Source: Bacteroidales bacterium
Lineage (GTDB): Bacteria; Bacteroidota; Bacteroidia; Bacteroidales; P3
DNA: 37,961 nucleotides
Assembly: GCA_031274555.1 (NCBI GenBank)
Contig: JAISPZ010000101.1
Coordinates: forward strand, 1 to 37,961
Reading direction: 5' to 3'
The translations under genes and the position numbers were made by a program. This document shows positions 5,371 through 33,120 of this stretch, piece by piece. The notes below the pieces were generated by a model that made no database searches, was not told where the DNA came from, and saw only the letters and a program-made list of their open reading frames with translations. Numbering within the stretch: position 1 is the first letter of the stretch; the number at the start of each line of letters is the position of its first letter.

Positions 5371-5396
5371 AAGTTTGTGATTTTTGGCGAAGTGGA

Positions 5397-5499: not shown

Positions 5500-6783
5500 T
5501 TAATTTTTTGAAATTTTACATCCCACAAGTGCATAATAAAGCAGATAAGCAAGTCCGGCAACAATTACCCAATAACTTGTTGCGTAAGAGGAAATATCGA
5601 CAATATAATTTTGCAACAACGGCAAAATAGCACCGCCACAGCAGAGTGTCATAAAGATACCAGACGCTTTTTCCGTCTGTGAGCCTAATCCTTCTACCGC
5701 CAGATTAAAAATTCCACCCCACATTACCGACATGCAAAGTCCTACTAAAACTAAATAGAACGCATTAATGGGGACAAGTGCCGTTCCGAACGTGAGCGCA
5801 CCCTCTGCCGACCTCATCAACACAGGAAGATTTACCTTGTTGTTCACATCCGAGAAGATTGCCAGAAGAACAAGCAACAGCCCAATGCTTGCAACCGTAG
5901 AGAGCATCACTCTGCTCGACACTTTTCCTCCGATAGCAGCACCGACAAGCCTTCCGATAAGCATTAAAAACCAATACGTGCCCGCAACGAAACCAGCAAT
6001 AGTAGCGGCTGTCAAGGGATCTCCAAGCAAGTTAAGGTCCTTGTCGGCTAACCATGTAAATAATACGTCTGCCGTACCGACCTCAATACCAACATAAAAG
6101 AAAATCGCTATAGCACCGAGCAGAAAATGACGGACTTTTAGCAAGTTTCGTTTTGCGGCGACAGCGACAGTTTTAAGCACAGGATTTTGTATGCGAGTGA
6201 ACAAAATCACTAAAAACGCAAAGGCAAATACACCGAGAGCGATGTACATAACAGGATATACGGAAGAAATACTTGCTTTCGTGATGTCCCCAACCAACAC
6301 TCCGACTAACATAATAACCGCAGTGCCTGCGAATGAATTGAACGCAGTGCCAAGCTGCACCAATTGGTTTCCTTTCTTTCCACCTCCACCTATGGAGTTA
6401 AGCATAGGATTTACTACCGTGTTTAGAAGACACATCGAAAATCCTGCAATAAACGCACCTGTGAGATAAATGCAGTACGCAGAAGTTCCGTCCCCCAGAG
6501 TCCCCGAAAGGGTCTGAATACCAACGCCGACAAAACCGACGCTGACAGCAAGAAGTGATGTCTTTTTGTACCCCATCTTTTGCAGCAGTATCCCACTTGG
6601 CACACCCAAAATGGCATAAGCAATAAAATTTGCGAATACTCCAAGCTGTGCGAGCCAGTTTGGAAGAATAAACTGATGTTTAAGCACATCTCCCATCGGA
6701 GAGGCAAGATTTGTAACGAAAGAGATAATTCCAAAGAGGAATATCATTACAATAATAGGCAGAATTTGTTTGTTTTTTGACAT
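5500..6783 (-). CDS. FHS-family MFS sugar permease
   Basis: A 427-residue inner-membrane transporter with about 12 hydrophobic helices. The N-terminus (P-I-I-V-M-I-F-L-F-G-I-I-S-F-V-T-N...L-K...F-x-L...Q-L-G-V-F-A-N-F-I-A-Y-A-I-L-G-V-P-S-G-I-L-L-Q-K-x-G-Y-K) has the layout of the fucose/glucose/galactose:H+ symporter (FHS) family. It is the last gene of the PUL operon: its start is only 1 nt from the stop of the GH127 gene. Role (inference): cytoplasmic uptake of monosaccharide released in the periplasm by the GH3 and GH127 enzymes. The exact sugar cannot be read from sequence. Confidence 0.85.
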   Translation of the reverse strand: MSKNKQILPIIVMIFLFGIISFVTNLASPMGDVLKHQFILPNWLAQLGVFANFIAYAILGVPSGILLQKMGYKKTSLLAVSVGFVGVGIQTLSGTLGDGTSAYCIYLTGAFIAGFSMCLLNTVVNPMLNSIGGGGKKGNQLVQLGTAFNSFAGTAVIMLVGVLVGDITKASISSVYPVMYIALGVFAFAFLVILFTRIQNPVLKTVAVAAKRNLLKVRHFLLGAIAIFFYVGIEVGTADVLFTWLADKDLNLLGDPLTAATIAGFVAGTYWFLMLIGRLVGAAIGGKVSSRVMLSTVASIGLLLVLLAIFSDVNNKVNLPVLMRSAEGALTFGTALVPINAFYLVLVGLCMSVMWGGIFNLAVEGLGSQTEKASGIFMTLCCGGAILPLLQNYIVDISSYATSYWVIVAGLAYLLYYALVGCKISKN

Positions 6784-6784
6784 A

Positions 6785-8785
6785 TTATTTTATTTTAAAA
6801 GTTGTCTGTCTTAATACCGTTTGTCCTATTGGCTTCAATTCTTTTTTTTCTACTTTCTGCCAAACGGAATTGTACAAATTCGCGAAGAAACGCCCATTTT
6901 CCAATACAGGCATTTCCCCCGCATATTCAAAGAGGGTGAAATTTTGTGGGATATATTCAAAATCTTGAAACCCCTCAATATATGTTCGTTGTGGGATTTC
7001 TGCCGCTGCGATAGGGAGTGACAACACTTGCCCATTGCAAGTAAAATACACTTCATCATTCACGAGATGTTTTTTTATCTCTGGCAACCACTCTATTACG
7101 ATGGACGTGTCGCCAGCCCATTTTTTTTCTAAGATAATATAATTTTCGGTTTCTTTGTATGCTGAATTGATAATAAATTCTTTCATCCAAGAGGGCTTGC
7201 GTATTTTTAGTGCGAACGAAACAGGTGTCGCCACAGAAATATCAAAAGTGATTTTTGACGTAGCAGGGTAGTCTGTCGTTTCTTTAATTGAAATTTTTTT
7301 ATTGTCAAAAATGGTGTTTAATTCGCAGCCGCCAAACAGAAGTGCGACAAATCCGTCTTTATCTCTAAGCCACATATTTTGAATGTAATACGGTGTGATA
7401 CGTCCCGCATTGGGAACACAGCAAACGGCGACATCCTGATGTGCAGGAGAGTATTTGTAGCGAGTTTGCTTATGGTTTGGCGCAAAGGAAAAGTTTAGTC
7501 CTCCTGTCATTTGGTATGAATTATCCGTTTTGCAATAGGCTATGGCACTTTTTTTGGGATGACGCGCACCAGCAGCTGCGTTGAAGAACGTGTTCTCTAT
7601 ATCATCGGCGTAACGAACATCACCTGTCTTTTTGACTATTTCTGTATAAGAATCAAGCAGTTCGTGCAGAGAGCAATATTCATAGCCCGTATTGGTCATA
7701 TCTGCCTTGCGACCAAAAATCCATTCATCCCCGACAGCACCGCCTGTAACAGTCGTAACTTCCTTTATTTTATCCAAATAAATCTGCAACGCAGCTTTCA
7801 ACTCTGGACTATCGGAAGCATAGCAGGCGAGAAGCAAAGGGCGAATATGTTCGTAGGTATGCACTCCATGTCCTTTAAGGTCATCTTTGAGATACAAGAT
7901 ATTATAAAGCTGAATATCAGGCTCTGACAATTCATGCGAAGAATAGTCTTTATAGAGAAACAGTGCATAGTCCAAGTAGGTGGACTTTCCTGTTTGTTGA
8001 TATAACCAGTCTAAAATATCTGTGAAGACAAGCCCGTGACAAAGCCCTGCCGAAGATTTTTTCACTCCGAACGGATGACTTGCATTGATACGATAATTTT
8101 CCATCACATTATCAACTCCTCGTCTTACTGCCTCAAAGACGTTTGTATCGCCTGTAAACTCGTAGTAGGCAATAAGTCCGCGATAGAGCGTTGCCTTGGA
8201 CCAGAGTTCGCCATTTTCGCCGTTTGCCGTATCGAACTTGTAGCGCAAGTCTTCATCATAAATGCCCAGATAGCCGTCTTCATCCTGTGTAGAGAGAATT
8301 TTTGCAACGTACTTTTTTATCTTTTCGATATGCGTTTTATCACCCGCAAAAAAAGCGTTTCGTATATAGCCGTCCCACCAATTTGATTGGGTTTCGCTGT
8401 TCCACCATAAGTACTGCACCTCCCATTCTGCCCCTTCGGGACTGTTACCCAGATTTTTTGAGCGATGTTTTTTCGTTAATCTGTCTTTTCCGTAAATATC
8501 GTCTTTTACAATTAAATCAGGCACGAGCGCGTCCAAATGCCCGACAAAGCCATTTAAATCAACGCGCAAGCGGTCTAACAGCGCACCTGTGGGCTTGATT
8601 TCGTTCAAAGGAATACGTGTAAAAGCATATTCTTTTTGTCCGATGACGGTTAGCGTTGAGGCGAGATTTGCTTTGTTAAGTTTGCGGGCTGGAGTATAAG
8701 CCTCCATCCGATCATTTTGCCCCACAGCAGCATCAACCCCAAAAACAAGAAGCCCCGCAACAATAAAATTTTTTATACGTGTCAT
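6785..8785 (-). CDS. GH127-type beta-L-arabinofuranosidase (DUF1680)
   Basis: A 666-residue exported enzyme; the signal peptide is MTRIKNFIVAGLLVFGVDAAVGQ. The body has the (alpha/alpha)6-barrel hallmarks of GH127/DUF1680: W-W-N-S-E-T-Q-S-N-W-W-D-G-Y, T-Q-D-E-D-G-Y-L-G-I-Y, T-G-G-A-V-G-D-E-W (E354), Y-E-Y-C-S (E369 and C371) and A-V-C-C-V-P-N (C455, C456). In the Bifidobacterium family member HypBA1 equivalent Glu and Cys residues bind zinc and a Cys is the nucleophile, so the active site looks intact, although one accessory Cys of HypBA1 appears replaced. The family removes beta-L-arabinofuranose, but DUF1680 is functionally broad (GH127/137/142/146). It sits 1 nt from both neighbours. Confidence 0.8.
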   Translation of the reverse strand: MTRIKNFIVAGLLVFGVDAAVGQNDRMEAYTPARKLNKANLASTLTVIGQKEYAFTRIPLNEIKPTGALLDRLRVDLNGFVGHLDALVPDLIVKDDIYGKDRLTKKHRSKNLGNSPEGAEWEVQYLWWNSETQSNWWDGYIRNAFFAGDKTHIEKIKKYVAKILSTQDEDGYLGIYDEDLRYKFDTANGENGELWSKATLYRGLIAYYEFTGDTNVFEAVRRGVDNVMENYRINASHPFGVKKSSAGLCHGLVFTDILDWLYQQTGKSTYLDYALFLYKDYSSHELSEPDIQLYNILYLKDDLKGHGVHTYEHIRPLLLACYASDSPELKAALQIYLDKIKEVTTVTGGAVGDEWIFGRKADMTNTGYEYCSLHELLDSYTEIVKKTGDVRYADDIENTFFNAAAGARHPKKSAIAYCKTDNSYQMTGGLNFSFAPNHKQTRYKYSPAHQDVAVCCVPNAGRITPYYIQNMWLRDKDGFVALLFGGCELNTIFDNKKISIKETTDYPATSKITFDISVATPVSFALKIRKPSWMKEFIINSAYKETENYIILEKKWAGDTSIVIEWLPEIKKHLVNDEVYFTCNGQVLSLPIAAAEIPQRTYIEGFQDFEYIPQNFTLFEYAGEMPVLENGRFFANLYNSVWQKVEKKELKPIGQTVLRQTTFKIK

Positions 8786-8786
8786 A

Positions 8787-11039
8787 TCAAATAAGTGTGA
8801 ATGTTATAGTCTGTGTGTCAGCACTGTTGCGCCCAATCATCAATTCAAACTCACCTTGCTCACACACATATTGCAACTGATAATTATAAAATTTTAATAA
8901 CGATGAAGTGATTTTAAAGGAAACGTTTTTTGTTTCGCCCTTTTTGATAAAAACCTTTTCAAATCCTTTTAACTCCTTGACAGGACGGACAGTACTTGCG
9001 ACCACATCTCGAATATAAAGTTGTACTGTTTCGTATCCGTCCCTATCGCCACTGTTGGTGATGGCGACAGTGGCAACGAGTGTGTCTTTTTCACTCATAA
9101 CAGTATCGTTAATAGCGATTTCACCGTAGTCGAACGTAGTATAACTTAATCCGTAGCCGAATGGATATAACGGCTCGTTAGGGACATCCAAATAGCCACT
9201 ACGAAATTTATGAAACCATTCCTGCATTGGCTTGCTTACATTTTTAATGTTGTAGTAAATCGGTATCTGTCCAACATTGAGGGACCACGTGGCTGTGAGT
9301 TTTCCACTCGGATTAACATCGCCAAACAACACATCAGGGATTGCGAAAGCGGCTTCCGTACCCGGAAACCAGACATTCAGAATGGCATCAACATTATCTT
9401 TTTCCCACAGTATTGTGAGTGGACGTCCTGTAAATAGAACGAGGACGACAGGCTTTCCTGTTGCGACTAATGCTTTTAACAATCGCTTCTGTGGAGCGGG
9501 AATGTTCAAGTCGGAACGGCTGCTGGACTCGCCACTCATTTCTGCGGACTCCCCCAACGCTGCCACTATGACATCTGCTTTTTTTGCAACGCTTAACGCT
9601 TCCCGCAGAAGTTCCGCTTCGCTGCGCGGATCTTTTTCAAAGTCCTTTGTAAGCGACAGATAGTCTTCCTGTGTCATATCTTCGTAGGGCTGACATCCCC
9701 TTGCGTATATCACAGAAGCGTACTCTTTCATGCCCTCCAACAATGTTGTTGCCTTGTTTATGTTGGCAGGCCACCCCCAAGAGCCGAGCATATTCGGTCG
9801 ATTATTCCCATGAGGACCGATAAGTGCTATCGTGCTTTGTTTTTTTAACGGAAGAAGATTGCTGTCGTTCTTTAACAAAACAAATGTTTCGGTGGCTATT
9901 TTACGCGCTGTTTCTCTATGTTTTGCGTTATATATGTCCCTTGCAGGACGTGTAGTGTCGCAGTATTTGTACGGATCTTTAAAAAGTCCAAGTTTATATT
10001 TTATTTTCAAAATTCTACGACAGGCATCGTCGATATGTCTTATATTTATATCGCCGTTGCTTAGTGCTTTTTGCAGATTAAAATAGTACGCGTAACTTTC
10101 CATATCCATATCAGTGCCTGCCTTTAAGGACATTATCGCTGCACCGTACGAGTTTCCCATTCCGAAACGCTGAATATCGTTTATGGAAGCGTAGTCTGTA
10201 ACGACAAAGCCCTGAAACCCCCACTCTTTACGCAAAACGTCGTCGAGCAGCCATGAATTTGCGGTTGCGGGCATTCCGTTAATTTCGTTAAAGGAAGACA
10301 TCACGCTCCCGACCCCTGCTTCTATTGCTGCCTGATACGGATACAGGTAGTCGTTCCGTGCGCGTTGCTCGCTCATATCCACAACGCTGTAATCTCGCCC
10401 TGCTTCACTCGCTCCGTAGAGTGCAAAATGTTTTACGCAGGCAAGAATATTCGTGTTATCGGCGTATGCAGGCTCGCCCTGATAGCCCCTCACCTGTGCT
10501 TTTGCAATTTCCCCGCCCAAGAACGGATCTTCGCCCGCACCCTCTGCAATCCTGCCCCAACGCGGGTCGCGGGCAATATCAACCATAGGTGAATAAACCC
10601 AATTAAGTCCATCAGCACTTGCTTCAACAGCAGCAATATGTGCGGCGGTTTCTATATTTTTAAGATTCCACGAAGAAGCCATGCCGAGAGGTATGGGAAA
10701 AATTGTTTCGTAGCCATGTAGAAAATCCATACCGAACAGTAATGGGATTTTCATACGGCTTTCTTCTACTGCAATACGCTGTAATTCCCTTATTTTATTG
10801 ACTCCTTTTGCGTTGATAAAAGCACCGACTTTCCCTTTTCTGATTTCCATTACGGTTTTGTTGCTGTCGCTGTACAGGTTTTCGCCTGATATTGCATCCG
10901 TACCCGAAATAAGATGAAGCTGTCCGATTTTTTCCTCTACACTCATTCTGCTCATCAAGTCGTCAATAAATTTGTCGGGTGACGGCTGTTTGCAGGCGAC
11001 AAAAAGGACAGACAGAAATAATAAACTAAATTTGTTCAT
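8787..11039 (-). CDS. GH3 beta-glycosidase (BglX-like lipoprotein)
   Basis: A 750-residue GH3 enzyme. ATG 11039 is preferred because it starts a lipoprotein signal (MNKFSLLFLSVLFVAC, Cys16); an upstream ATG at 11072 would add an unusual extension. Visible motifs are G-M-D-F-L-H-G-Y, D-P-R-W-G-R...G-E-D-P, K-H-F, the nucleophile region G-F-V-V-T-D-Y (D282), the likely acid/base in S-G-E-S-S-S-R-S-D (E504), and a C-terminal fibronectin-III-like domain (about 655-745). It is predicted to hydrolyse beta-glucosides or similar beta-linked oligosaccharides in the periplasm or at the outer membrane. The start overlaps the end of the upstream methyltransferase gene by 14 nt, so expression is probably coupled. 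Confidence 0.88.
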   Translation of the reverse strand: MNKFSLLFLSVLFVACKQPSPDKFIDDLMSRMSVEEKIGQLHLISGTDAISGENLYSDSNKTVMEIRKGKVGAFINAKGVNKIRELQRIAVEESRMKIPLLFGMDFLHGYETIFPIPLGMASSWNLKNIETAAHIAAVEASADGLNWVYSPMVDIARDPRWGRIAEGAGEDPFLGGEIAKAQVRGYQGEPAYADNTNILACVKHFALYGASEAGRDYSVVDMSEQRARNDYLYPYQAAIEAGVGSVMSSFNEINGMPATANSWLLDDVLRKEWGFQGFVVTDYASINDIQRFGMGNSYGAAIMSLKAGTDMDMESYAYYFNLQKALSNGDINIRHIDDACRRILKIKYKLGLFKDPYKYCDTTRPARDIYNAKHRETARKIATETFVLLKNDSNLLPLKKQSTIALIGPHGNNRPNMLGSWGWPANINKATTLLEGMKEYASVIYARGCQPYEDMTQEDYLSLTKDFEKDPRSEAELLREALSVAKKADVIVAALGESAEMSGESSSRSDLNIPAPQKRLLKALVATGKPVVLVLFTGRPLTILWEKDNVDAILNVWFPGTEAAFAIPDVLFGDVNPSGKLTATWSLNVGQIPIYYNIKNVSKPMQEWFHKFRSGYLDVPNEPLYPFGYGLSYTTFDYGEIAINDTVMSEKDTLVATVAITNSGDRDGYETVQLYIRDVVASTVRPVKELKGFEKVFIKKGETKNVSFKITSSLLKFYNYQLQYVCEQGEFELMIGRNSADTQTITFTLI

Positions 11040-12057
11040 ATAACGCTTCTGCAAAAGCAAGTAAATTTTCATGTTTTGTGAATTTTGGTATTTCGCACCC
11101 CGCGCTTATAATCGCTCTGCCGTTGGCTTCTTTTCTGCATTTGTAAACGGCGTTTTTCACGTCGCTTACAGAGCCATTCAGTACTACGGCAACAGGATCT
11201 ATATTTCCGTTTATGACAGCACCTGTGCCCTGCATTACTTCTACTGCGTGTTTCATATCCACCATCCAATCAATATCAACAATATCGAAACCGACAGTGG
11301 CAATATCTTCCAGAATATGATTGATATTTCCGCAAATATGCAGTCGCGCAATTCCCCCTGCCTGCTTTATTCCCTCTACGATACGTTTTTCGTAAGGCAC
11401 AATTTTTTCGCGGTATAAATCCCTGTTGATAAGCGAACAGGCTGCGTCACCGACACCGATGATGTGCGCCCCCGCTTCTACCTGCGCCTTTGCGCACCAA
11501 ATAGCTTCCTGCGTACATTTTTCTAACAGTTCATAGAACAGTTCTTCGTTGTCTTCATCAATAACGTCTATTAATGCGTCATTAATGCCGCGTAAATCAC
11601 TTGCTTCCGCAAGAGGTCCCTCTACCCAGCCGAGAATAGGATATTCGTCGCCTCTTTCTTTTTTGAACAGTTCAATTGCTTTAATTCTATCCAATATGCG
11701 GACAGATTTTAAGGGGTCAAAAAGTTGCAGGTTTTGCACATCTTCAATGTTTGGCAGCAGCACTCTCTTAGGGTGAGGCAGTTCGTCTTCGGGAATGTCA
11801 AGTTCAGTTCCGAAGTCGGCTGTTTCGCGCACAGGGTCAGACATAGTGCTAAGCACATCAATATCAAATTTTTCTACACAACGCAGGTTGCCCTCTACTA
11901 ATGTTTTGTAGTCGGTGCAGAATTTCCCGAACGGAGCGTTGATATAGTATGCCGCAAAAAACATCAGGATATTCAGGTTTGGGGCGCGGTCTAAATTTTT
12001 TGTGTTTTCGCCGTCAAGCACTGCTTTAAGACGGTCATAAGGTGTAAGTTTTGTCAT
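11026..12057 (-). CDS. mtaA-like: UroD/MtaA-type corrinoid:acceptor methyltransferase
   Basis: A 343-residue protein of the uroporphyrinogen-decarboxylase superfamily branch that contains MtaA/MtbA. The zinc motif of that branch is present: L-H-I-C-G-N (H240, C242) and S-A-G-C-E-I-P (C321). True HemE lacks this arrangement. In methanogens MtaA moves methyl groups from methyl-corrinoid protein to coenzyme M; in acetogens the acceptor is tetrahydrofolate. Bacteroidetes do not make CoM, so tetrahydrofolate or a thiol such as homocysteine is the likely acceptor (inference). It is cytoplasmic with no signal peptide, 13 nt after the activation-protein gene, and overlaps the GH3 gene, tying methyl transfer to the PUL. 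Confidence 0.8.
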   Translation of the reverse strand: MTKLTPYDRLKAVLDGENTKNLDRAPNLNILMFFAAYYINAPFGKFCTDYKTLVEGNLRCVEKFDIDVLSTMSDPVRETADFGTELDIPEDELPHPKRVLLPNIEDVQNLQLFDPLKSVRILDRIKAIELFKKERGDEYPILGWVEGPLAEASDLRGINDALIDVIDEDNEELFYELLEKCTQEAIWCAKAQVEAGAHIIGVGDAACSLINRDLYREKIVPYEKRIVEGIKQAGGIARLHICGNINHILEDIATVGFDIVDIDWMVDMKHAVEVMQGTGAVINGNIDPVAVVLNGSVSDVKNAVYKCRKEANGRAIISAGCEIPKFTKHENLLAFAEALYEQI

Positions 12058-12070
12058 GATAATTTATTTT

Positions 12071-12775
12071 TTATTCAATATTTTTCTTTGGTTTCAAATG
12101 GCGATTTTTGTTTCTTATGCAGTTTTTCATTTTACAAATAGCGCAACCGTAAGGTCTTTTCTGTACGTTTTTTCCAATTCCAACAATTCCGCTCACCGAC
12201 TTTATGGGTAGCATAAGGCAGGACTCGGTGAGCGAAATTCCTGTCACTCCAAAGGGAAAAAGGGACAGCAGCTTTTTCTGCTCTATCAATGCCCAATCGC
12301 AATATCCCGGGCTGTAATTGTTAGACATTTTTTCGTCCGTAAGAGTTGCCTCAAGCCTTTGCAACAAAAGGGAAACGGTTGCTTCTGCAATGATAGAGCC
12401 GAGAGTATTTGCTATATACGCCTTTACAATATCATCTTCTTTTTCCGTCCGTTTAAGCCAACAGTCGAAATCCGCGCCGACAGTTGCCGTAAAGACAGCA
12501 AATCGCTCGGACTCATGCAGTGCATACGTGATAATTTTTCCTGTGTTCAGCACCTTGTCTTCCAAGCGAATTTCTTTTTTGCTGATTGCCTCGCCGCGCA
12601 CCACTTTATACCCCATACGTGGCTTGCAGACCGGTTGCAATTCGAGCAGCATATTTTCTATCAACATTTGTACTTCTTCGTCGGGTGTTTTGTTATCTAT
12701 ATAACCCATCAGCGAATACAAATCATCGTATCGAAAAGGAATTTCAGAAAAAGAAGTGTCCTCAAAAAACATCAT
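12071..12775 (-). CDS. MetH-activation-domain-like corrinoid reactivation protein
   Basis: A 234-residue cytoplasmic protein resembling the AdoMet-binding activation domain of B12-dependent methionine synthase as a stand-alone protein. The clearest signature is S-P-G-Y-C-D-W...L-F-P-F-G-V-T-G-I-S-L-T-E-S-C-L-M-L-P-I-K-S-V-S-G-I-V-G-I-G (about 155-205). The tail has Y-G-C-A-I-C-K-M-K-N-C, a Cys-x2-Cys-x3-Cys cluster that could bind metal or iron-sulfur. Role (inference): reductive methylation of the inactive cob(II)alamin on MtaC using AdoMet, the task done by RACE/RamA proteins elsewhere. The start codon overlaps the mtaB stop by 4 nt (ATGA). Confidence 0.75.
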   Translation of the reverse strand: MMFFEDTSFSEIPFRYDDLYSLMGYIDNKTPDEEVQMLIENMLLELQPVCKPRMGYKVVRGEAISKKEIRLEDKVLNTGKIITYALHESERFAVFTATVGADFDCWLKRTEKEDDIVKAYIANTLGSIIAEATVSLLLQRLEATLTDEKMSNNYSPGYCDWALIEQKKLLSLFPFGVTGISLTESCLMLPIKSVSGIVGIGKNVQKRPYGCAICKMKNCIRNKNRHLKPKKNIE

Positions 12776-14145
12776 ATTCCGTATTCTTCGGGTTTGTACT
12801 TTGAAGTATCGACTTCCTCTTTCATTTCGGAGATAAACTGCTCTTCATCTTCGGGAATTTCTTCCAACTGCTCTTGCAGGTTGCCAATCCACGACAGCTC
12901 GCGTTCAGGCAACGACAATTCATTTTTGTTCACAGCACGCTGCAAAATATCAAGCGTGGTGCGGGCAACGCCCAACGTGCGCAAGAAAGGACTTTGTGTC
13001 TTGATAACTTCGGCACAGATTTCAAAAACAACGTCAGGACGTAAAATATATGCCTGACTGTCTAAGTAACAGTCAGACTCCACAAGCCAGTCCCGAAGCA
13101 ATAACGCACCCCCCTTATTTGCAGCGACGTTCATCAGACGACAGTCGTATATCAACTGTTCAGTGGAAACAGTTGGCGCAAAGCCACTTAAAAGTTTTAC
13201 GTGCTGTACCGACTCGTTGCTCCACAAATCAGCTACCGCCGCCGCAATATTTCCGATAGGGCTGAAATGGGCACAGGCAGCAGTCTTCCCCTCAAGCGAA
13301 ACAGGCATTCCTGTAATAGCTTTCAGATACACGTTTTCGTAGGCACAGTCTTTGCCCGGACCCTTAGCACCACACTCTATCGCAACCAACGCCCTTGCCA
13401 CCGACATGGTACGCACAACAGAAGCAAAGACTTTGGGGATAAAGCCCTGCTCGGCAAGCACCATCGCAGTGTTGGCAAATCCACAGGCGGAGTCACCCGC
13501 AGGGATAGAACCATTCTCTTCGGCAATCTTCACAAGATTTGTCCAGAGCCACTTCATATCTCGCGGAGCAAGCACACCAAGCGCAAAAATGCAAGTACGA
13601 AGGTCAGCGTTCATCAGTGCTTCGTCGTTAATTTCCTTTCCACCGGTGGACTCAATTGAGAGCAAATCAGCACCGTCACGTGCCGTCTGCGCAAAAATAC
13701 GCTCCATCCCATCCCAATATTTCCCCCCTCGCATAATCGGTGGGCGACTCATCTCGCGCATATCATTCGGTGTCATACGAATTACACTTTTTAACCCCAA
13801 CTTCGCCTCAAAATCCCACATCGTATCCCGCAATATTTTGTGAATTTCAATACCCCATTCAGGATTTTCGGTAAATTGCGGCAACGTTTCAAACTCAATA
13901 ACAAGCCCCGAAGCATGTAATTCATACGCTTTTTTCAGCACTCCCTCAACCATTTCTTTGTAGATAGCCTTTGCTTCCGACAGCGTTTCCTGAGTAGCTT
14001 TCATCGGGGGAAGCGTAAAATTGACTTCGGGATAAATTTCGCCGCCACCTATCACTAAGCCGTTTTTACAAACGACAGGATTAGAACATTTTCCATAAAG
14101 AAAATCGTCCAAAGACGAATAAGCAAGTTTTGTATATTCTCTCAT
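12772..14145 (-). CDS. mtaB: Methanol:corrinoid methyltransferase MtaB
   Basis: A 457-residue cytoplasmic protein with strong similarity in layout to methanol-cobalamin methyltransferase. The three zinc ligands of the archaeal enzyme (Glu164, Cys220, Cys269 in Methanosarcina barkeri) have counterparts at almost identical positions: E165 in S-I-E-S-T-G-G-K-E, C221 in G-D-S-A-C-G-F-A-N, and C267 in G-A-K-G-P-G-K-D-C-A-Y-E. Length also matches. MtaB activates methanol on zinc and transfers its methyl to Co(I) of MtaC. It lies 4 nt after mtaC and overlaps the activation-protein gene. An alternative substrate (another small methoxylated compound) is possible, but intact ligands and spacing favour methanol. 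Confidence 0.85.
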   Translation of the reverse strand: MREYTKLAYSSLDDFLYGKCSNPVVCKNGLVIGGGEIYPEVNFTLPPMKATQETLSEAKAIYKEMVEGVLKKAYELHASGLVIEFETLPQFTENPEWGIEIHKILRDTMWDFEAKLGLKSVIRMTPNDMREMSRPPIMRGGKYWDGMERIFAQTARDGADLLSIESTGGKEINDEALMNADLRTCIFALGVLAPRDMKWLWTNLVKIAEENGSIPAGDSACGFANTAMVLAEQGFIPKVFASVVRTMSVARALVAIECGAKGPGKDCAYENVYLKAITGMPVSLEGKTAACAHFSPIGNIAAAVADLWSNESVQHVKLLSGFAPTVSTEQLIYDCRLMNVAANKGGALLLRDWLVESDCYLDSQAYILRPDVVFEICAEVIKTQSPFLRTLGVARTTLDILQRAVNKNELSLPERELSWIGNLQEQLEEIPEDEEQFISEMKEEVDTSKYKPEEYGI

Positions 14146-14149
14146 GTTT

Positions 14150-14794
14150 TTATTTCCCCAGACCTAATAAATTTTTAACAGCAGTAACAGCCGAGTTTGC
14201 CGTTTCACCATAGCCGTCAGCACCTATTTCCGAAGCAAATCCAGCACTTATGGGAGCACCGCCAACAACGATTTTTACTTTGTCCCGCAACCCTGCATCT
14301 CTCAAAGCATCTATCACAGTCTTCATATAAGGCATAGTTGTTGTAAGTAAAGCACTTAGCCCAAGCACATCCGCATTGTGCTCGCGTACCGCCTCCACAA
14401 ATTTTTCAGAGTCCATATCAATACCAATATCAATAACTTCAAATCCGCAGCCCTCTAACATAGATGCAACAAGGTTTTTCCCGATGTCGTGCAAATCGCC
14501 TTTCACCGTCCCGATGACCACTTTTCCGATAGAAGTTTTTTGCCCGCTATTTTTCATAATGGGCTGAAGAATATTCAGAGAGGCTTTCATCGCCCGCCCA
14601 GCCATCAAAAGTTCAGGCACAAAAATTTCTTGATTTTCAAACCGTAGTCCGACTTCGCCCATCGCCTTAATCATATATTCGTCAATAAGCAATTTTGGCT
14701 CAACATTGTCGGCAAGCGCAGCATTAGTCAGTTCAACGGCACTTTTTTGTTTGCCTTTGAGAATGGCTTCATAGAGTAAATTCAAATCTGTCAT
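14150..14794 (-). CDS. mtaC: Corrinoid protein MtaC
   Basis: A 214-residue corrinoid-binding protein. Residues about 1-85 form the helical cap (M-G-E-V-G-L-R-F-E-N-Q-E-I-F-V-P-E-L-L-M-A typical of methyltransferase corrinoid proteins). Residues about 89-210 form the Rossmann-like B12 domain with G-D-L-H-D-I-G-K-N, where H102 is the expected lower axial cobalt ligand, plus L-S-A-L-L-T-T-T-M and V-G-G-A-P-I-S. It would carry the methyl group between MtaB and the MtaA-like enzyme. It lies 4 nt from both the GH13 and mtaB genes, inside one operon. Confidence 0.9.
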   Translation of the reverse strand: MTDLNLLYEAILKGKQKSAVELTNAALADNVEPKLLIDEYMIKAMGEVGLRFENQEIFVPELLMAGRAMKASLNILQPIMKNSGQKTSIGKVVIGTVKGDLHDIGKNLVASMLEGCGFEVIDIGIDMDSEKFVEAVREHNADVLGLSALLTTTMPYMKTVIDALRDAGLRDKVKIVVGGAPISAGFASEIGADGYGETANSAVTAVKNLLGLGK

Positions 14795-14798: not shown

Positions 14799-16607
14799 TT
14801 AAAATTTTATCACCAAAGAAGACCGAGCCGCAACTTCGGTTTCTTCCCCATTTGTAATTGTTTTTCCTGTTAAAATATCTATACCTGCGGTCTTTCCGTT
14901 CAATCGTTCGTCAAACCTTGCCCATTCGATAGACTGCACTTTGTCAGAAGCATTGATTATTATCATCACACAGTCGTTTTCGTCGTAACGAAAATAAGTA
15001 TATACACCACCCGAAGGAATATACTGCATTAGTTTTCCACCCTGTAAAACAGGCGTTTGCTTTCTGAAATTCAAAAGCGTTCGCAAATGCTTAAATACAT
15101 CTTGCTGTGCTGCCGCAGGCTCTGACGGAATGTGGAAATCCACCCGATTGGCGTGAGGACCTCCGCGTGAGTCGTCCGCAAAAAGCCATTCCGTTCCGTA
15201 GTAAATCTGTGGCAATCCGCGCGTTGTGGCGATAAATGTCATTGCTATTTTCACCAAAGAACTGTCTTTTTTCAGCATATTATAAAGTCGCATCATATCA
15301 TGATTATCTGCGAAAACCACTTGCGACTTTTCGGGATTATCATATACAAAATCAAGCGCGAGCGCGTTGTAAACAGTACGCATTTTTCCGCCCCAATGGG
15401 CGTTTTCTTTCGTCAAGTCGATAACAAGAGCTTCCTGCAATGGAAAATCCATCACCATCGGCAAGCTGTCGGACGAAAGCCAACGCGCAAGAATAGACGG
15501 CTCATTGCCCCAAATCTCACCGACAATGCCCATATTCGGAAACTCATCTCTTATAAGTTTTGTCCATTTGGCAGCCTCTAACCCCATGTAAAAGTAAGTA
15601 TCCACCCTAAGTCCGTCAAGATTGGCGTATTCTATCCACCATATTACATATTGCGCTATATATTTAAGCACGAAGGGATTACGCATATTCATGTCGGGCA
15701 TTTGCTTGTAGATAATCGTATTGCCTGTGAAGTCCCTGTCTATTTTTGACGAATGTGGGTCGCTTAGTGCTTCGAGTGAAAAATATTCGTAGTGCGGCGG
15801 CAGGTTCGTGTCGTTTAACCAATCCCTGAAAGGAGGATTTTTCACCCAGGCATGACCCACCCCGCAATGTTGCGGGGTAACGTCCTGTATTATCTTCAAT
15901 CCCTTCTCGTGAGCGAGCTGCACCATCTCTTTATAGAGTTCGTTAGTGCCGAAATAAGGGTTTATTTTATAGTAATCCGTGATACCGTAATTGTGATAGC
16001 TAAGGTCGTCGTCAAGCATAGGAGTTGCCCAGATAGCGGTAACTCCCAGATCCTGCAAATAGTCCAAGTGGTTTATTATCCCCTGAATATCCCCGCCGTG
16101 TCGAGCTTCGAGATGTGTCCTGTCAATTTTGCCAAAATTGTTAGTGGTGTCGCCGTCCGCAAATCTGTCGGGCATGATAAGATAAATTGCGTCTGCATTT
16201 GTAAATCCGCTGCGCTGCGCCGAATTCTCTGTGCGCGGAAGAATTTGGTACGGAATTTTTATTTTCTTCATCCCCGGTGCGCCCGGTGCGCCCTGTGCGC
16301 CCTGTGCGCCTTGTGCGCTCTGTGCGCCCTGTGAGATTTCTATCGTATAGCTTCCTGCACGTTGAACCTCCATATCTATAAACAGATAGTCGGGGCTATC
16401 CGCATTATAAACATTCTTTACCGACAGTCCATCTTCCAAAACCGTCACAGTACTGTTTTGCAGATTTTGTCCGCGTACCATCAGCTGCAAATCGTTTTTC
16501 ATGCCAGCCCACCAGCAGGGAGGATCAACTCGCTGCGCGAACAGTGGAAGCTGCACCGCCAGAAGCAACAGCAAAACGAAAGCTCTATTTGTGTTTGTAG
16601 AAAACAT
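14799..16607 (-). CDS. GH13 alpha-amylase/neopullulanase (SusA-like)
   Basis: A 602-residue secreted enzyme with signal peptide (MFSTNTNRAFVLLLLLAVQLPLFAQ). An N-terminal beta domain (about 30-125) is followed by the GH13 barrel (about 138-520) with I-M-P-D-R-F-A-D-G-D, G-L-R-V-D-T-Y (nucleophile D336), V-G-E-I-W-G (acid/base E364) and A-D-N-H-D (D437), so the catalytic triad is intact, then a C-terminal beta domain. It resembles periplasmic neopullulanase SusA and indicates an alpha-glucan component in the substrate. Oddly, residues 93-112 are a low-complexity run of A-Q-G and A-P-G repeats. The start overlaps the SusE gene by 23 nt; mtaC begins 4 nt after its stop. Confidence 0.88.
   Translation of the reverse strand: MFSTNTNRAFVLLLLLAVQLPLFAQRVDPPCWWAGMKNDLQLMVRGQNLQNSTVTVLEDGLSVKNVYNADSPDYLFIDMEVQRAGSYTIEISQGAQSAQGAQGAQGAPGAPGMKKIKIPYQILPRTENSAQRSGFTNADAIYLIMPDRFADGDTTNNFGKIDRTHLEARHGGDIQGIINHLDYLQDLGVTAIWATPMLDDDLSYHNYGITDYYKINPYFGTNELYKEMVQLAHEKGLKIIQDVTPQHCGVGHAWVKNPPFRDWLNDTNLPPHYEYFSLEALSDPHSSKIDRDFTGNTIIYKQMPDMNMRNPFVLKYIAQYVIWWIEYANLDGLRVDTYFYMGLEAAKWTKLIRDEFPNMGIVGEIWGNEPSILARWLSSDSLPMVMDFPLQEALVIDLTKENAHWGGKMRTVYNALALDFVYDNPEKSQVVFADNHDMMRLYNMLKKDSSLVKIAMTFIATTRGLPQIYYGTEWLFADDSRGGPHANRVDFHIPSEPAAAQQDVFKHLRTLLNFRKQTPVLQGGKLMQYIPSGGVYTYFRYDENDCVMIIINASDKVQSIEWARFDERLNGKTAGIDILTGKTITNGEETEVAARSSLVIKF
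16279..16332 (-). repeat. 9-nt in-frame tandem repeat in the GH13 gene
   Basis: Six units of GCGCCCTGT-type sequence (plus strand) encode A-Q-G, A-Q-S and A-P-G triplets in the N-terminal domain of the amylase. Changes in unit number stay in frame. Confidence 0.85.
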
Positions 16608-17703
16608 AATGTTTTGTTAAATCATTGAATTTGACAAAGTATTTTCCTGTTGTTACAGGAATATTTGAACCGTTCGCGTCCCCCTTTCCATAAGGAAACC
16701 CAGAGGCACTATAACTCGTTGTTTCGTCAGCATTAAATTTTACGCCGCCGGTGCTAATATCCAAACTGTCGAGATACCAGATATGCGGGTCGTAATGCGT
16801 TTGTTTCATGTTCAGATTTGCCCATTCGTTAAAGTCGCCACTTATGGACATGGTGGAATATACTGTGGCGGAAGATACGTCATATTGAGAAAAAGAGAAA
16901 GTCAGATTTAGAATATCCACTTCGAGCGTATAATAACCGACAGTATTGTGTACTTGAATATTGCCGTAAGATGCAGCGGGGATCATCAGATGTCCCTCGC
17001 CAGCTTCCCAATCATAACCATAAGCAGGTTTCGCCCAGCTGCCGAGACTTGCATCAGGGAACAACTGAAATTCCGAATTGGCAAGAAACGAGGAAGTGTA
17101 AACATTTAAGCCAAGATTGTCGTCCCTAAACATGACATATCTGTAATTGGCGACATCCCAACAATAGTTACCCGCAGTTCCAAAACCAGCAATATCATCA
17201 AACGCACTCCCTACAATATGCAGTGCAGGCGGCACAGAGGAATACGGCGTTACGGTAATGCTTACGGGCGAAGACAGGACTTTTATGTAGTAGTCTTGAC
17301 TGATAGCTGCTTCGAGGGTAAATTGTACCGATGTTGGGACTTCGGCTTGCGCTCCGAGAGATAGCAGAACAGCGTTCAAATCACCCAGAACGACAGACAT
17401 CGAGTCTTCGGAAGCAGGCACTCCCACAGGAGCGGGGTCGCCCAATTGCGCCTGTTGCCCCTGCTGTCCCTGCAGCACCGAAGCGTAAAGTCTGTAAGTA
17501 ATAGCTGCGGAATATCCGAAGTCTGCGGGTGTCCAATGAAAAGTCAGCACCGAGTCGCTATTTGACGGCGTAATTTCGATGGCGGCAACTTGTGATGTAA
17601 GCACAGGCGGGGTTGGATTGCTCAACGCCGTTGTTTTTTCCTCTTTTTTGCAGCCAAACGCCACCATAATGAGAAGCAGCAGTAAATAAATAATATTCTT
17701 CAT
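16585..17703 (-). CDS. SusE-like outer-membrane glycan-binding lipoprotein
   Basis: A 372-residue lipoprotein. ATG 17703 starts MKNIIYLLLLLIMVAFGCKKEE with lipobox A-F-G-C (the ATG at 17715 would add four residues only). After the Cys come P-P-V-L and I-E-I-T-P-S-N-S-D-S-V-L-T-F-H-W-T-P-A-D-F-G-Y, the usual start of the SusE Ig-like domain. Further modules have L-H-I-V-G-S-A-F-D and M-S-I-S-G-D-F-N-E-W patterns, which are glycan-binding SusE/F-type folds. It sits in the normal place after susC-susD, but separated from susD by a 248-nt repeat-filled gap. It should bind alpha-glucan-like polymer at the cell surface. Confidence 0.8.
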   Translation of the reverse strand: MKNIIYLLLLLIMVAFGCKKEEKTTALSNPTPPVLTSQVAAIEITPSNSDSVLTFHWTPADFGYSAAITYRLYASVLQGQQGQQAQLGDPAPVGVPASEDSMSVVLGDLNAVLLSLGAQAEVPTSVQFTLEAAISQDYYIKVLSSPVSITVTPYSSVPPALHIVGSAFDDIAGFGTAGNYCWDVANYRYVMFRDDNLGLNVYTSSFLANSEFQLFPDASLGSWAKPAYGYDWEAGEGHLMIPAASYGNIQVHNTVGYYTLEVDILNLTFSFSQYDVSSATVYSTMSISGDFNEWANLNMKQTHYDPHIWYLDSLDISTGGVKFNADETTSYSASGFPYGKGDANGSNIPVTTGKYFVKFNDLTKHYVFYKHK

Positions 17704-17713
17704 ACACAAAATC

Positions 17714-17954
17714 AATTACGAATTACGAATTACGAAAACAAACATCAACACTCTGCACAAACGATAATCAATTACGAATTACGAATTACGAATTACGAAT
17801 TAAAACCAACATCAGCACTCTGCACAAACACCATGCACTAACAGTAGGCACAAACATCAGGCACAAACAACACGTGCGTCAGCCGTAATTCGTAATTCGT
17901 AATTAAATCCGCGTCAGCCATAATTGACAATTAACAATTGACAATTAACAATTA
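17714..17954. repeat. Heptamer and 14-mer repeat array between susD and susE
   Basis: The 248-nt gap holds AATTACG x3 (17714-17734), AATTACG x4 plus a partial (17770-17802), the inverse CGTAATT x3 (17884-17904), and a duplicated 14-mer ATTGACAATTAACA (17922-17950). The phrase ACTCTGCACAAAC also recurs twice between the blocks, giving a ~56-nt higher-order unit. The 14-mer runs into the susD stop. Direct and inverted heptamers could pair into a long hairpin in the mRNA, which might act as a processing or attenuation point between susCD and the enzyme genes. Confidence 0.85.
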
Positions 17955-19529
17955 GTATCCAGCATTTTGCTTCAAATTCGGGTTTGCAATCATGTCGGCG
18001 GAGGGTATCGGGAAAAGGTTTAGGTGTTCGCCAACGCTCGTCCCCTCTTTAACTCCCCCTTTCCACTGCCACAAATAGTTTCCCGAAGTGTAGCGACCAT
18101 ATCGAACCAAGTCCGTCCGACGGAAACACTCCCACCAAAGCTCACGTGCTCTTTCATCTAAAACGTAGTCCAAATCGTAGCTGCCGATAGTCGTTAAGCC
18201 CGCTCGTGTCCGCAGGTCATTCAAATATCCAAGTGCGGTATTTTCGCTACCTCCCGTACCGCCACGTTTTACAGCTTCGGCGTAAATCAAATATATTTCA
18301 GCCAGACGAAAAAGAGGAAAATCATTATCCACAAACATTGCTTCAGGGTTAGAGCCTAAAACGCCTGTGCTCGTAACGTTGCGAAACTTCGCCCCCATTA
18401 ATCCGTCCTCAAATTCAGTAATGTCGTCTATATCCATCTTAGTTCCTATCAGCAGGCGGCGAGTGTCTGCGTTATCAAATTTTTCCGCCAATTGCTTTCT
18501 CGTTCTAAATGAGTACCATCCACCCATTCCCTTTGTGCCATAATAATTATTATAGTTTGTCGTATCGCCACTTCTCTGTGGCTTGTAGGACGAATTGATA
18601 ATATAAGTCAATCCACCATACCCCTGTGTATGAAATCCGTCATAATTGACAGAAAGGATGACCTCTGGATTATTAAGATTATTGTCTGCAAGGAAAAGAG
18701 ATGAATAATCGTCTTTCAGGTCATATCCCGCAGAGAGAACAGCTTGACAATAAGTGATAGCATCCGTATAACGTGCTGTACCTGTGTAAACTTCGGCGTT
18801 CAGATACATCCGCGCCAGCAATGCCCACGCAGCCGCTCTGTCAGCACGACCGTACTCATTTGTGCGCGGCTCTTTTAGCTCGTCTTTGATTGCCAATAAT
18901 TCACTCTCGACATAATCAAATATTTCTGTTCTCGTTTTTTGTTGCGGAAGATATTTTCCCCCGATGGTCGAATTTTCGTCTATAAAAGACGGATTACCAA
19001 TAAAATCCATCAACACCCAATATTGAAAGGCACGCAAAAAACGTACCTCGTAACGAAAGGAAGCAACCATGTCAGCCTCACTTCCTGTGATGCCCCGCAA
19101 TTCTAATTTTTCAGGTGTGGCTTCGCGTAAAAATTCATTTGCCAGTGTTATTTGATACATGGAACGATAATACAAGCCTGCAACAAACGGATTGCTTGTT
19201 GTCCAAGTCATAAAGTTTAGTTCAGGACAACCTGCGTCAGCCCACGTATAAGCGGCTTCTTCGGTTGTCAGGCATTGCAGATTAAACCAGCAGCGAATAA
19301 AGTCTGTCAATGCTCCGTCTGCCATTGGAATATCGTCTGCACCAGTGGTATTGTTTCCAATAGTAGCATAAGAAGCATATACTTTCGCAAACACTTGTTT
19401 ATAGCCGTTAAAATCAGCATAAACATCTTCACTCGTCTTGTCGTTAGCAGGAAATCTGTCCAAATCTTTTATGCAAGAGGCAAAGAGCGCAGCCACTAAC
19501 AGTATTGTAATTGTTCGCGTCATAGTCAT
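17952..19529 (-). CDS. susD-like: SusD/RagB-family glycan-binding lipoprotein
   Basis: A 525-residue outer-membrane lipoprotein. The signal MTMTRTITILLVAALFASC ends in lipobox F-A-S-C (a second ATG 6 nt inside is equally possible). SusD hallmarks are Y-R-S-M-Y-Q-I-T-L-A-N-E-F-L, R-A-F-Q-Y-W-V-L-M-D, A-A-W-A-L-L-A-R-M-Y-L-N-A-E-V-Y, F-P-L-F-R-L-A-E-I-Y-L-I-Y-A-E-A, and R-A-R-E-L-W-W-E-C-F-R-R-T-D-L-V-R-Y-G at the C-terminus. It forms the lid of the SusC transporter. The start overlaps the susC stop by one base (TAATG). Confidence 0.93.
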   Translation of the reverse strand: MTMTRTITILLVAALFASCIKDLDRFPANDKTSEDVYADFNGYKQVFAKVYASYATIGNNTTGADDIPMADGALTDFIRCWFNLQCLTTEEAAYTWADAGCPELNFMTWTTSNPFVAGLYYRSMYQITLANEFLREATPEKLELRGITGSEADMVASFRYEVRFLRAFQYWVLMDFIGNPSFIDENSTIGGKYLPQQKTRTEIFDYVESELLAIKDELKEPRTNEYGRADRAAAWALLARMYLNAEVYTGTARYTDAITYCQAVLSAGYDLKDDYSSLFLADNNLNNPEVILSVNYDGFHTQGYGGLTYIINSSYKPQRSGDTTNYNNYYGTKGMGGWYSFRTRKQLAEKFDNADTRRLLIGTKMDIDDITEFEDGLMGAKFRNVTSTGVLGSNPEAMFVDNDFPLFRLAEIYLIYAEAVKRGGTGGSENTALGYLNDLRTRAGLTTIGSYDLDYVLDERARELWWECFRRTDLVRYGRYTSGNYLWQWKGGVKEGTSVGEHLNLFPIPSADMIANPNLKQNAGY

Positions 19530-22432
19530 TAAAAATTAAAGTTTATACCTAACGCAAAAATTCTCGGACGTGGGTAGAAGTCCCTGTCTATACCGCCAGA
19601 AATTTCAGGGTCAAGCCCCGTATATTTTGTCAGCACAAAAACGTTCTGTACAGAAAAAGTCGCAACTAATCCTACTTTATTTTTCAGTAAATCGCTAAAA
19701 TCGTACGATAAACTCAAATTGTCCATACGCAGAAAAGAGGCATCTTCGAGGTAATAGTCAGTGAGTTGTCGCTGATTGTTAAACCCACTGTTTAACACAC
19801 TTTCGGGAGCATTACAGATAGATGTTGCGCGGAAAATATTACTGTAAAAAGCCATATTTGATGCCACATCATTATACATATAGTTGCCCAGACTTCCACG
19901 CAGAGAGGTAGAAAGTGTCCAGTTCCTGTAACGTAAATTCGTAGTGAAACCACCTGTCAAAAAAGGTTCGGCGGACGTGAGTCGCTGCAAGTCATCTTCA
20001 TTGATTTTGTTATCTCCGTTTTGGTCCACATACACACCCTCTATCGGTTTTCCGTCAGTGTCATAAACTTGTTCGTAAAGATAGAAAGTGTACATACTGT
20101 AACCAACGCTATGAACCTGAGCAGTAGCACCAAGCCCCCCACTAATCCATCCGTCCTGTACGCCCCGATAGGCAGGGTCTTCTACCAGCGTAAGTTTAGT
20201 TATTTTATTTTTGTTGTACGCCAAATTCACACCAATATCCCAGCTCCAATCTTTTGTCTGTATCAGTATGGCATTAAGGGCTATCTCCACTCCTTTGTTT
20301 TCCATATTTCCGATGTTGGTGAGGATTCTGTTACTGAAATTAGACCCCGCAGCGACAGGTATTGTGTTGAGCAAGTTGTCGGTCTTCTTGTAGTAAAAAT
20401 CGATACTTCCGTTTATACGATTATTCAAAAATCCGTAGTCAATACCGATATTGTAAGTGCCTGTGGACTCCCATTTTATATTACGGTCATAAGCATTTGG
20501 ACGAAGCACATCATAAAACTCATCACCAAGCTGATACCGTACCTGCGCCGTACCCTGTGTATATACTGCGAGATAAGGATAATAATTACCAATATCCTGT
20601 TGCCCTGTTTTACCATAACCGACACGCAGTTTTAACGCACTCACCACATCAATATCTTTCAAAAAGTTCTCATTTTTTATTTGCCACGCAAGAGCTATGG
20701 CAGGGAATACTCCCCACCTGTTTTCTGGCGCAAAGCGAGAAGATCCGTCTGTACGGATAGATGCCGAGAGCATATAACGATCCATAAATGAATAATTTAG
20801 CCGTCCGAAAAAAGACAGTAAAGTATAGCGGGGTTCATTAAACGGGAATGTTGGAGTTTTATAAATATCTCCGTTTGCCAACCGTTCGGGATAATTAGTA
20901 GTATGCTCTTTCCAATCCTGATAAGCATACCCTGCTGTAACATCAAAAGTGCTTTTGATAGAGGGGACTTCCTTGCTGTAATTAAGATAAAATTCGAGTA
21001 ATTTATTTTGATTATATCCGCCGTAATCGGTGTTTGTTCCACCCGGACGGGAAAGAACCTGCACAGGCATCGTTTCGGGAATAAAGGTATTACCGCTCCC
21101 TTGAGAATAGTCATAAGCGAGATTGAGGATGGCTCTTAGTTCGGGGAGAAAGTGCATCTTGTAGTCTATGCTCGCAGAGGCAATGCCACGCCACACTCTT
21201 GACTTGTTGGAGTACAGGTCGAGCAATAGAAGCGGGTTTACTCCCGCCTGTGCATCCGTCCACATAAAGTCTGTGCTCTGGGTAGGGTCGAACATAAGGG
21301 CAGAACCGATAGCAGAGGTGTTTGCAAAACGGTTGTTCATCATACTTCCTTTCAAAGACACATCTATTTTGAGATGATTTTTGAAAAAGCGCGGGTTGAG
21401 GTTTATTCCGACAGAGGCACGTTCCATATTGCTTGTTTTTAAAAGACCGTTCTCGTTCAAATAGCCCGCAGACACGCGAAACGGCACTACACCTCCCTTA
21501 GAAATGCTTAAATTATTGTCAGTCCCCATTGCGACACGATAAATTTCCGACTGCCAATCGGTGCTTGCCGTTCCTAACAGTTCGGGCTGTCTGGGGCTTA
21601 CAATATCTGTAATCTGTTCCGCCGAAAGCAGCTTGACACGATTTGCCGTTGTGGAAGCAGAGAAACGTGTGCTGAAATCAATTTTCACTTTTTTATCCAA
21701 ATCGGCTTTCTTGGTGACAATAAGGACCACTCCGTTAGAGGCTCTATTTCCATAGATAGCAGTTGCCGAAGCGTCTTTAAGAATTGTCATTGATTCTATC
21801 TCGTTAGGATTTATGGTGCTTAGCAGGCTTGGCGAGCCTGCGACACTGCGATTTTCTAAGGGAATACCGTCTATAACAATCAACGGCTCTTTGCCCGCAC
21901 TGATAGATGCCGAGCCTCGAATACGAATACGGCTGCCCGAACCGGGTGCTCCTCCGTTAGGTGTTACTACGACTCCCGCCACTTTTCCCATCAACATTCT
22001 ATCGGCAGAGGCACTGCCTTTGAGCAGGTCTTTTTCGCTTACAGAAGTTACAGCACCAGTGATTTTCTCTGTTGTGGCTGTTCCGTAGCCAATCACGACA
22101 ACCTGCGAAAGAGTTTTTGAACTTGTGGACAGAGTTAGAGTTGTTTGATTTGCCTCGCGTGCAGTGGTTTCTATTGATGACATACCAATAAAGCTGAACA
22201 CGAGTGTTACGTCAGGGGATGTTGCCTGCAAGGTGAAACGTCCGTTGATGTCGGTGGTAGTTGCTTGCGAGGAGTTGTTTTTCTCTACGATATTCACTCC
22301 TACAACAGGGTCGCCCTTGCTGTCTATGACAGTTCCAGAAATGGGCACTGTTGCATTTGCTGTTGCAGGGACAGACGTGAAAAAGAAAATAAGCAGGACA
22401 AAGATTTGATAGTTAAATCTGGGCATTTGCAT
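19529..22432 (-). CDS. susC-like: SusC/RagA-family TonB-dependent transporter
   Basis: A 967-residue outer-membrane porin. It has a signal peptide (about 1-28), a carboxypeptidase-like N-terminal domain (V-P-I-S-G-T-V-I-D-S-K-G-D-P-V-V-G-V, about 29-105), the SusC plug (V-V-V-I-G-Y-G-T, about 112; R-I-R-I-R-G-S-A-S-I; I-L-K-D-A-S-A-T-A-I-Y-G-N-R-A-S-N-G-V about 220-240), then the beta-barrel ending in a terminal Phe, with the standard end P-R-P-R-I-F-A-L-G-I-N-F-N-F. First gene of the ten-gene PUL operon, with a -7-like box 41 nt upstream. Imports oligosaccharide from the cell surface with SusD. Confidence 0.95.
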   Translation of the reverse strand: MQMPRFNYQIFVLLIFFFTSVPATANATVPISGTVIDSKGDPVVGVNIVEKNNSSQATTTDINGRFTLQATSPDVTLVFSFIGMSSIETTAREANQTTLTLSTSSKTLSQVVVIGYGTATTEKITGAVTSVSEKDLLKGSASADRMLMGKVAGVVVTPNGGAPGSGSRIRIRGSASISAGKEPLIVIDGIPLENRSVAGSPSLLSTINPNEIESMTILKDASATAIYGNRASNGVVLIVTKKADLDKKVKIDFSTRFSASTTANRVKLLSAEQITDIVSPRQPELLGTASTDWQSEIYRVAMGTDNNLSISKGGVVPFRVSAGYLNENGLLKTSNMERASVGINLNPRFFKNHLKIDVSLKGSMMNNRFANTSAIGSALMFDPTQSTDFMWTDAQAGVNPLLLLDLYSNKSRVWRGIASASIDYKMHFLPELRAILNLAYDYSQGSGNTFIPETMPVQVLSRPGGTNTDYGGYNQNKLLEFYLNYSKEVPSIKSTFDVTAGYAYQDWKEHTTNYPERLANGDIYKTPTFPFNEPRYTLLSFFGRLNYSFMDRYMLSASIRTDGSSRFAPENRWGVFPAIALAWQIKNENFLKDIDVVSALKLRVGYGKTGQQDIGNYYPYLAVYTQGTAQVRYQLGDEFYDVLRPNAYDRNIKWESTGTYNIGIDYGFLNNRINGSIDFYYKKTDNLLNTIPVAAGSNFSNRILTNIGNMENKGVEIALNAILIQTKDWSWDIGVNLAYNKNKITKLTLVEDPAYRGVQDGWISGGLGATAQVHSVGYSMYTFYLYEQVYDTDGKPIEGVYVDQNGDNKINEDDLQRLTSAEPFLTGGFTTNLRYRNWTLSTSLRGSLGNYMYNDVASNMAFYSNIFRATSICNAPESVLNSGFNNQRQLTDYYLEDASFLRMDNLSLSYDFSDLLKNKVGLVATFSVQNVFVLTKYTGLDPEISGGIDRDFYPRPRIFALGINFNF

Positions 22433-31962: not shown

Positions 31963-33120
<1,158 letters not shown>

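Follow-up and report, generated by a model that had tools for sequence, protein, structure and literature searches.

A Sus-type glycan utilization operon of Bacteroidales with an embedded, putative methanol:thiol methyltransferase

Gut methanol is usually ascribed to methanogens and acetogens. What, then, might genes for methanol:corrinoid methyl transfer be doing inside a glycan utilization operon of an uncultured, gut-type Bacteroidales bacterium? The question is raised by contig JAISPZ010000101.1 (assembly GCA_031274555.1), a stretch of 37,961 nucleotides that we refer to throughout as the window; it belongs, as contig C139, to a metagenome-assembled genome (MAG) of 2.76 Mb with a completeness of 78%. 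Here a set of four genes, mtaC, mtaB, act and an mtaA-like gene, lies within a Sus-type polysaccharide utilization locus (PUL). On balance we think it probable that this is a hybrid operon, joining Sus glycan uptake to an embedded methanol:thiol methyltransferase that gives its methyl group to homocysteine, and so to methionine. The evidence comes from the order of the genes and its recurrence in other genomes, from the family and zinc ligands of the predicted donor enzyme, and from the zinc site of the predicted acceptor enzyme.

The operon and its recurrence

Eleven genes run on the minus strand from 22432 to 5500. In reading order these are:

19529..22432, minus strand: SusC-like TonB-dependent receptor, heading the contiguous run (Pfam Plug, TonB barrel and CarbopepD_reg; orthologues 74% and 51% identical)
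17952..19529, minus strand: SusD-like glycan-binding lipoprotein (PF07980, 4e-31; orthologues 77% and 60%)
16585..17715, minus strand: SusE-like outer-membrane protein (PF14292, 1e-13; orthologues 44% and 31%)
14799..16607, minus strand: glycoside hydrolase family 13 (GH13) neopullulanase/cyclomaltodextrinase, SusA-like, with a signal peptide-like start (closest relatives of known structure: 1h3g cyclomaltodextrinase, 9fyz SusA; E ~1e-110)
14150..14794, minus strand: MtaC-like corrinoid protein of 214 residues, with B12-ligating H102 within GDLHDIG (B12-binding domain, 2.9e-32; tree)
12772..14145, minus strand: MtaB methanol:corrinoid methyltransferase of 457 residues, predicted zinc ligands E165/C221/C267 (PF12176, 2.9e-172; 2i2x_A, 3e-87; tree)
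12071..12775, minus strand: Act, a stand-alone corrinoid reactivation protein of the MetH type, dependent on S-adenosylmethionine (SAM), 234 residues (partial Met_synt_B12 match, 1.8e-9; 1j6r, 5e-6)
11026..12057, minus strand: MtaA-like methyltransferase of the UroD family, 343 residues, predicted zinc site H240/C242/C321 and predicted thiol acceptor (URO-D, 2e-58)
8787..11072, minus strand: GH3 beta-glucosidase of the BglX type with a lipoprotein-like start (NF011678 BglX, over cutoff; periplasmic beta-glucosidases 5xxl and 5tf0)
6785..8785, minus strand: GH127-like six-hairpin glycosidase (PF07944, 1e-23; weak matches to 6ex6 and 4qjy)
5500..6783, minus strand: MFS sugar permease of the gluP/NagP type (PF07690; TIGR01272, 4e-28, under cutoff)

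A tandem susC-susD pair and several glycoside hydrolase genes thus share one strand, as in a Sus-type PUL. A first-pass annotation of the window had placed the four one-carbon genes between GH13 and GH3 on the minus strand and named the MtaB, MtaC and MtaA-like metal-binding residues listed above; positions and residues are all exact. It also described ten genes from susC to the permease. The single-strand run stands, although the count is eleven once the susE and GH127-like genes are included. Its gaps of 4-13 nt or overlaps hold around the mta genes, where the junctions in reading direction are 4 nt (GH13-mtaC), 4 nt (mtaC-mtaB), -4 nt (mtaB-act), 13 nt (act-mtaA) and -47 nt (mtaA-GH3), but the wider run contains a single gap of 236 nt between susD and susE. 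This spacing agrees with a predicted co-transcription of the mta and sus genes. Predicted promoters and terminators were about as frequent as in shuffled sequence or moderately more so, and were of no use for setting the operon limits. No B12 or SAM riboswitch reached the Rfam gathering score in the window, in its two relatives or in the MetH and MetF regions.

The first-pass annotation had suggested looking for the mta quartet beside susCD in other genomes. The order esterase-susC-susD-susE-GH13-mtaC-mtaB-act-mtaA-GH3 is kept in two more Bacteroidota MAGs:

L006/L035: MAG Cd354_bin43, of the same genus as the window genome, same operon order
L036: MAG Pc512_bin106, labelled Prevotellaceae, same operon order

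MtaB itself is found in two of the 190 genomes of the family, both from one genus; of 393 genomes sampled across the order, 17 have it. MtaA, MtaB and MtaC are 79-89% identical between the window and the two relatives, among the most conserved products of the operon. Against Pc512_bin106 the identities are 51% for SusC, 60% for SusD, 31% for SusE, 57% for GH13, 73% for GH3, 80% for MtaC, 80% for MtaB and 79% for MtaA. The FolP proteins of these two genomes share 44% identity, about the distance between the window genome and another genus of its family. The nonsynonymous rate (dN) is low and the synonymous rate (dS) saturated. Judging from the shared order, these identities and the substitution rates, the operon is either old or was transmitted whole, and is under purifying selection. 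Mis-binning or a chimera is ruled out by the identical order in three MAGs, and neither chance nor faulty binning explains a recurrence that persists with SusC at 51% and SusE at 31%. In the congener a 230-nt gap between mtaB and act (L006:13937-14166) holds degenerate TAGTGTGT-type repeats.

Two further genes of the window have counterparts beside susC in the relatives:

27975..28856, minus strand: AraC-family PUL regulator (88% identical to the AraC gene immediately upstream of esterase-susC in L006/L035; split from susC by a restriction-modification insert here)
31963..33210, minus strand: secreted alpha/beta-hydrolase esterase, PF00756 (69% and 58% identical to the susC-adjoining esterase in L006 and L036)

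In both relatives the esterase abuts susC. Between susC and the regulator, the window carries a type II restriction-modification set (22433-27812) with a restriction endonuclease at 23172-25118, two DNA methyltransferases at 25035-26737 and a helix-turn-helix control protein at 26740-27075. Since regulator, esterase and susC are adjacent in L006, this set appears to have been inserted into the PUL. Beside the regulator lies a match to the Flavo-1 RNA family (50 bits, 27683-27810), with a second at L125:16826-16968, and an AbiEi/AbiEii-type toxin-antitoxin pair occupies 36082-37700.

Predicted methyl donor and methyl acceptor

MtaB matches PF12176 over positions 2-460 of 460 with 574 bits (cutoff 25), and reaches 411 bits against the methanogen equivalog NF040651, under its cutoff of 720. 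Its predicted zinc ligands align with E164/C220/C269 of Methanosarcina barkeri MtaB (2i2x). In the tree it is nested in a Lachnospiraceae clade (support 99; 70-76% identity), which is itself placed among the MtaBs of Acetobacterium, Clostridium, Sporomusa and Moorella; identity to acetogen MtaB (Acetobacterium, Moorella, Sporomusa) is 55-62%. Family, zinc ligands and clade together make methanol the probable substrate. The mta genes of Moorella are induced by methanol (PMC13391211). The first-pass annotation had named a non-methanol placement of MtaB in the phylogeny as one result that would refute its proposal; the tree gives no such placement, and an MtaB/MtaC pair of the methanol type within a Sus PUL is supported by family, ligands and phylogeny alike.

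The same annotation treated the genes as a set known from methanogens and acetogens; transfer of that set as a unit does not fit the trees. MtaC has its sister group in Anaerolineae and Verrucomicrobia. When it is constrained to group with Lachnospiraceae MtaCs, the resulting tree is rejected by the approximately unbiased test (p-AU 3.5e-6), which rules out a joint transfer of mtaCB from Lachnospiraceae. A vertical Bacteroidales origin of MtaB is likewise ruled out, as other Bacteroidales MtaBs are about 50% identical and form a separate, far clade. For MtaA, the best relatives found come from Opitutaceae and other Bacteroidota and share 40-44% identity with it; the nearest Act relatives found are in Bacteroidales. 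With MtaB, MtaC and probably MtaA differing in their nearest relatives, the cassette was put together piecemeal.

The acceptor is read from the MtaA-like protein. Its structure model (mean predicted local distance difference test, pLDDT, 85) has as best PDB match the coenzyme M methyltransferase MtaA of M. mazei (4ay7; template modelling score, TM, 0.86); when the two are aligned, its His and Cys residues fall on the LHICG and GC motifs of that enzyme. The zinc site is invariant across nine relatives. Such a His-Cys-Cys set marks S/Se-methyltransferases, whereas O-methyltransferases carry carboxylates or other substitutions (PMC10418091, Kountz and Balskus). A thiol is therefore the likely acceptor. 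As to which thiol, homocysteine is favoured, if by less, because a homocysteine S-methyltransferase fills the equivalent slot in two other loci. In L034, from another Bacteroidales genome, susC-susD is followed (1378-9543) by an mtaB fragment, mtaC, a homocysteine S-methyltransferase and act, a methyl system on the PUL side that is either independent or in decay; in L113 mtaB is found together with a homocysteine methyltransferase. A related corrinoid system, a Bacteroidota operon at L136:8626-12974, lacks mtaB but likewise includes a homocysteine S-methyltransferase, along with an mtaC-like gene, act and two UroD proteins.

It is unlikely, but not negligibly so, that the product of the MtaA-like enzyme is instead some other methylated thiol or a selenol (methanethiol, methylselenol or a methylated cofactor thiol), disposing of or detoxifying methyl groups or sulfide. 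A His-Cys-Cys UroD protein of the type 1 mlp clusters methylates selenide, and sulfide weakly (PMC10418091), and homocysteine is already served by MetH in these genomes. However, the mlp clusters have RACE and an Mlp2/Mlp3 pair where this operon has one UroD methyltransferase, and the slot shared with L034 and L113 points to homocysteine.

Transfer to tetrahydrofolate, which the first-pass annotation had offered alongside homocysteine, fares worse. We regard as improbable an acetogen-like methylotrophy in which the methyl group of methyl-tetrahydrofolate is oxidised or ends up in acetate or biomass. In its favour, MtaB belongs to the acetogen/Lachnospiraceae type and MetF is present in two genomes, but family searches in the three genomes (G000, G001 and G414) found no free-standing pterin-type (folate) methyltransferase, PF00809 being carried by FolP and MetH only, no formyl-tetrahydrofolate synthetase (FTHFS), no RACE activator and no MetE. 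The MtaA-like zinc site is also of the thiol type. In acetogen mtaB loci a pterin-type methyltransferase adjoins mtaB and makes methyl-folate (PMC13391211). Lachnospiraceae mtaB genes have a CobW-type gene and an AraC/PocR regulator as neighbours.

Several points weigh against homocysteine methylation from methanol, too. The MtaA-like protein does not reach the curated score of any named subfamily, with 157 bits against mtaA_cmuA (TIGR01463, cutoff 235) and 116 bits against NF040654 (cutoff 400). The gene absences come from incomplete MAGs, two of the three having a completeness of 78% and 86%. All three genomes carry MetH and two carry MetF, allowing synthesis from methyl-folate, so methionine would not depend on a methanol route. 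Finally, the mtaB of L034 is a piece of just 98 residues.

Act carries an SPGY motif and a C-terminal CxxCx4C, both kept in eight relatives. It resembles the solved stand-alone MetH activation protein 1j6r from T. maritima; its own structure model (pLDDT 35) is unusable. The MetH of the congener (L126:7299-10295, 998 residues) stops after the B12 domain, whereas that of the window genome (L124:716-4189, 1157 residues) has an activation domain. As the congener MetH has no activation domain of its own, Act might, speculatively, serve both it and MtaC. The idea that MtaB is strictly accompanied by MetH is weakened, since the MetH activation domain occurs in four other family members too.

Glycan, methanol and the proposed pathway

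Its GH13, GH3 and SusE content makes the glycan of this PUL look like a starch-like or alpha-glucan-like polymer. Could the methyl group come from the glycan itself? In that case MtaB would have shifted its substrate, or the MtaA-like protein would be a second donor enzyme, drawing methyl groups from the imported glycan or an esterase product and passing them through MtaC to MetH or another acceptor. The cassette does lie inside a PUL beside a conserved secreted esterase, and its MtaC comes from outside the MtaB donor clade. Yet the methanol zinc ligands, the close identity to Lachnospiraceae MtaB and a predicted alpha-glucan with no known methyl source make such a donor improbable. That the cassette merely landed in the PUL and is kept without a functional tie to glycan use is very improbable indeed: the PUL substrate looks unrelated to methanol and the pieces differ in origin, but the position is identical in three genomes despite the divergence of SusC, the spacing to the PUL neighbours is tight or overlapping, and dN is low with dS saturated.

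We therefore return to the hybrid operon. The Sus part would bind, import and digest a glucan-like polymer. MtaB would activate methanol on zinc and methylate the Co(I) of MtaC, from which the MtaA-like protein would transfer the methyl group to a thiol bound to zinc. Homocysteine is the most likely such thiol, and methionine would be the product. MtaC oxidised to Co(II) would be re-reduced and re-methylated by Act with SAM, replacing the ATP-dependent RACE of acetogens. Methanol would serve as a methyl supply for methionine and SAM during growth on the glycan, and not for energy. Because an alpha-glucan gives no obvious methanol, the link between the two may be ecological rather than chemical, with methanol probably released from pectin by degraders nearby; the lack of a pectin methylesterase, remarked on in the first-pass annotation, extends to all three genomes. 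A more specific version is possible, though somewhat less likely than not: a PUL with a built-in methanol-dependent methionine synthase (MtaC to UroD-type enzyme to homocysteine, with a SAM-dependent activator) that couples sugar import to methyl supply and diverts methanol from gut methanogens.

If this reading is right, a saccharolytic Bacteroidales capturing methanol methyl groups while it feeds on a polysaccharide would be a third methanol sink in guts. That would bear on methane output, and one-carbon metabolism would join the functions carried by PULs. The predicted methanol-to-thiol route, without folate or coenzyme M, would also suggest an acceptor to test for the UroD-type MtaA-like proteins of bacteria, about whose role little is established.

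Comparison with known systems

The individual proteins are all of known kinds. The first-pass annotation knew of no described PUL with such a one-carbon arm, and the combination of a PUL with MtaB/MtaC, a thiol-type MtaA and Act was not found in the open-licence PMC papers searched.

The acetogen methanol system (MtaABC of Acetobacterium, Moorella and Sporomusa) shares MtaB and an MtaC-type corrinoid protein, with methanol as the predicted donor here. The acetogen MtaA, in contrast, is a pterin-binding folate methyltransferase, where this operon has a UroD-family protein with a thiol zinc site, and acetogens use RACE where Act is found here, without the FTHFS of the Wood-Ljungdahl pathway. The methanol:coenzyme M system of Methanosarcina has the same three-protein plan and a UroD-type MtaA with His-Cys-Cys zinc, which the model of our protein matches; here, however, MtaA is under the MtaA family cutoffs, Act is added and the operon is a PUL, and nothing points to coenzyme M synthesis in this Bacteroidales, although no search aimed at it was made. 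The type 1 mlp clusters (PMC10418091) likewise combine UroD-family His-Cys-Cys MtaA-like proteins and a corrinoid protein in anaerobic bacteria, without a folate methyltransferase. They are defined by Mlp2, Mlp3 and RACE and hold several Mlps, whereas this operon has one UroD gene alongside MtaB and Act, in genomes where no RACE was found. Finally, with the sus operon and other Bacteroidota PULs the locus shares SusC, SusD, SusE, a SusA-like GH13, an AraC regulator and an MFS permease; what sets it apart is the presence of four cytoplasmic one-carbon genes between GH13 and GH3.

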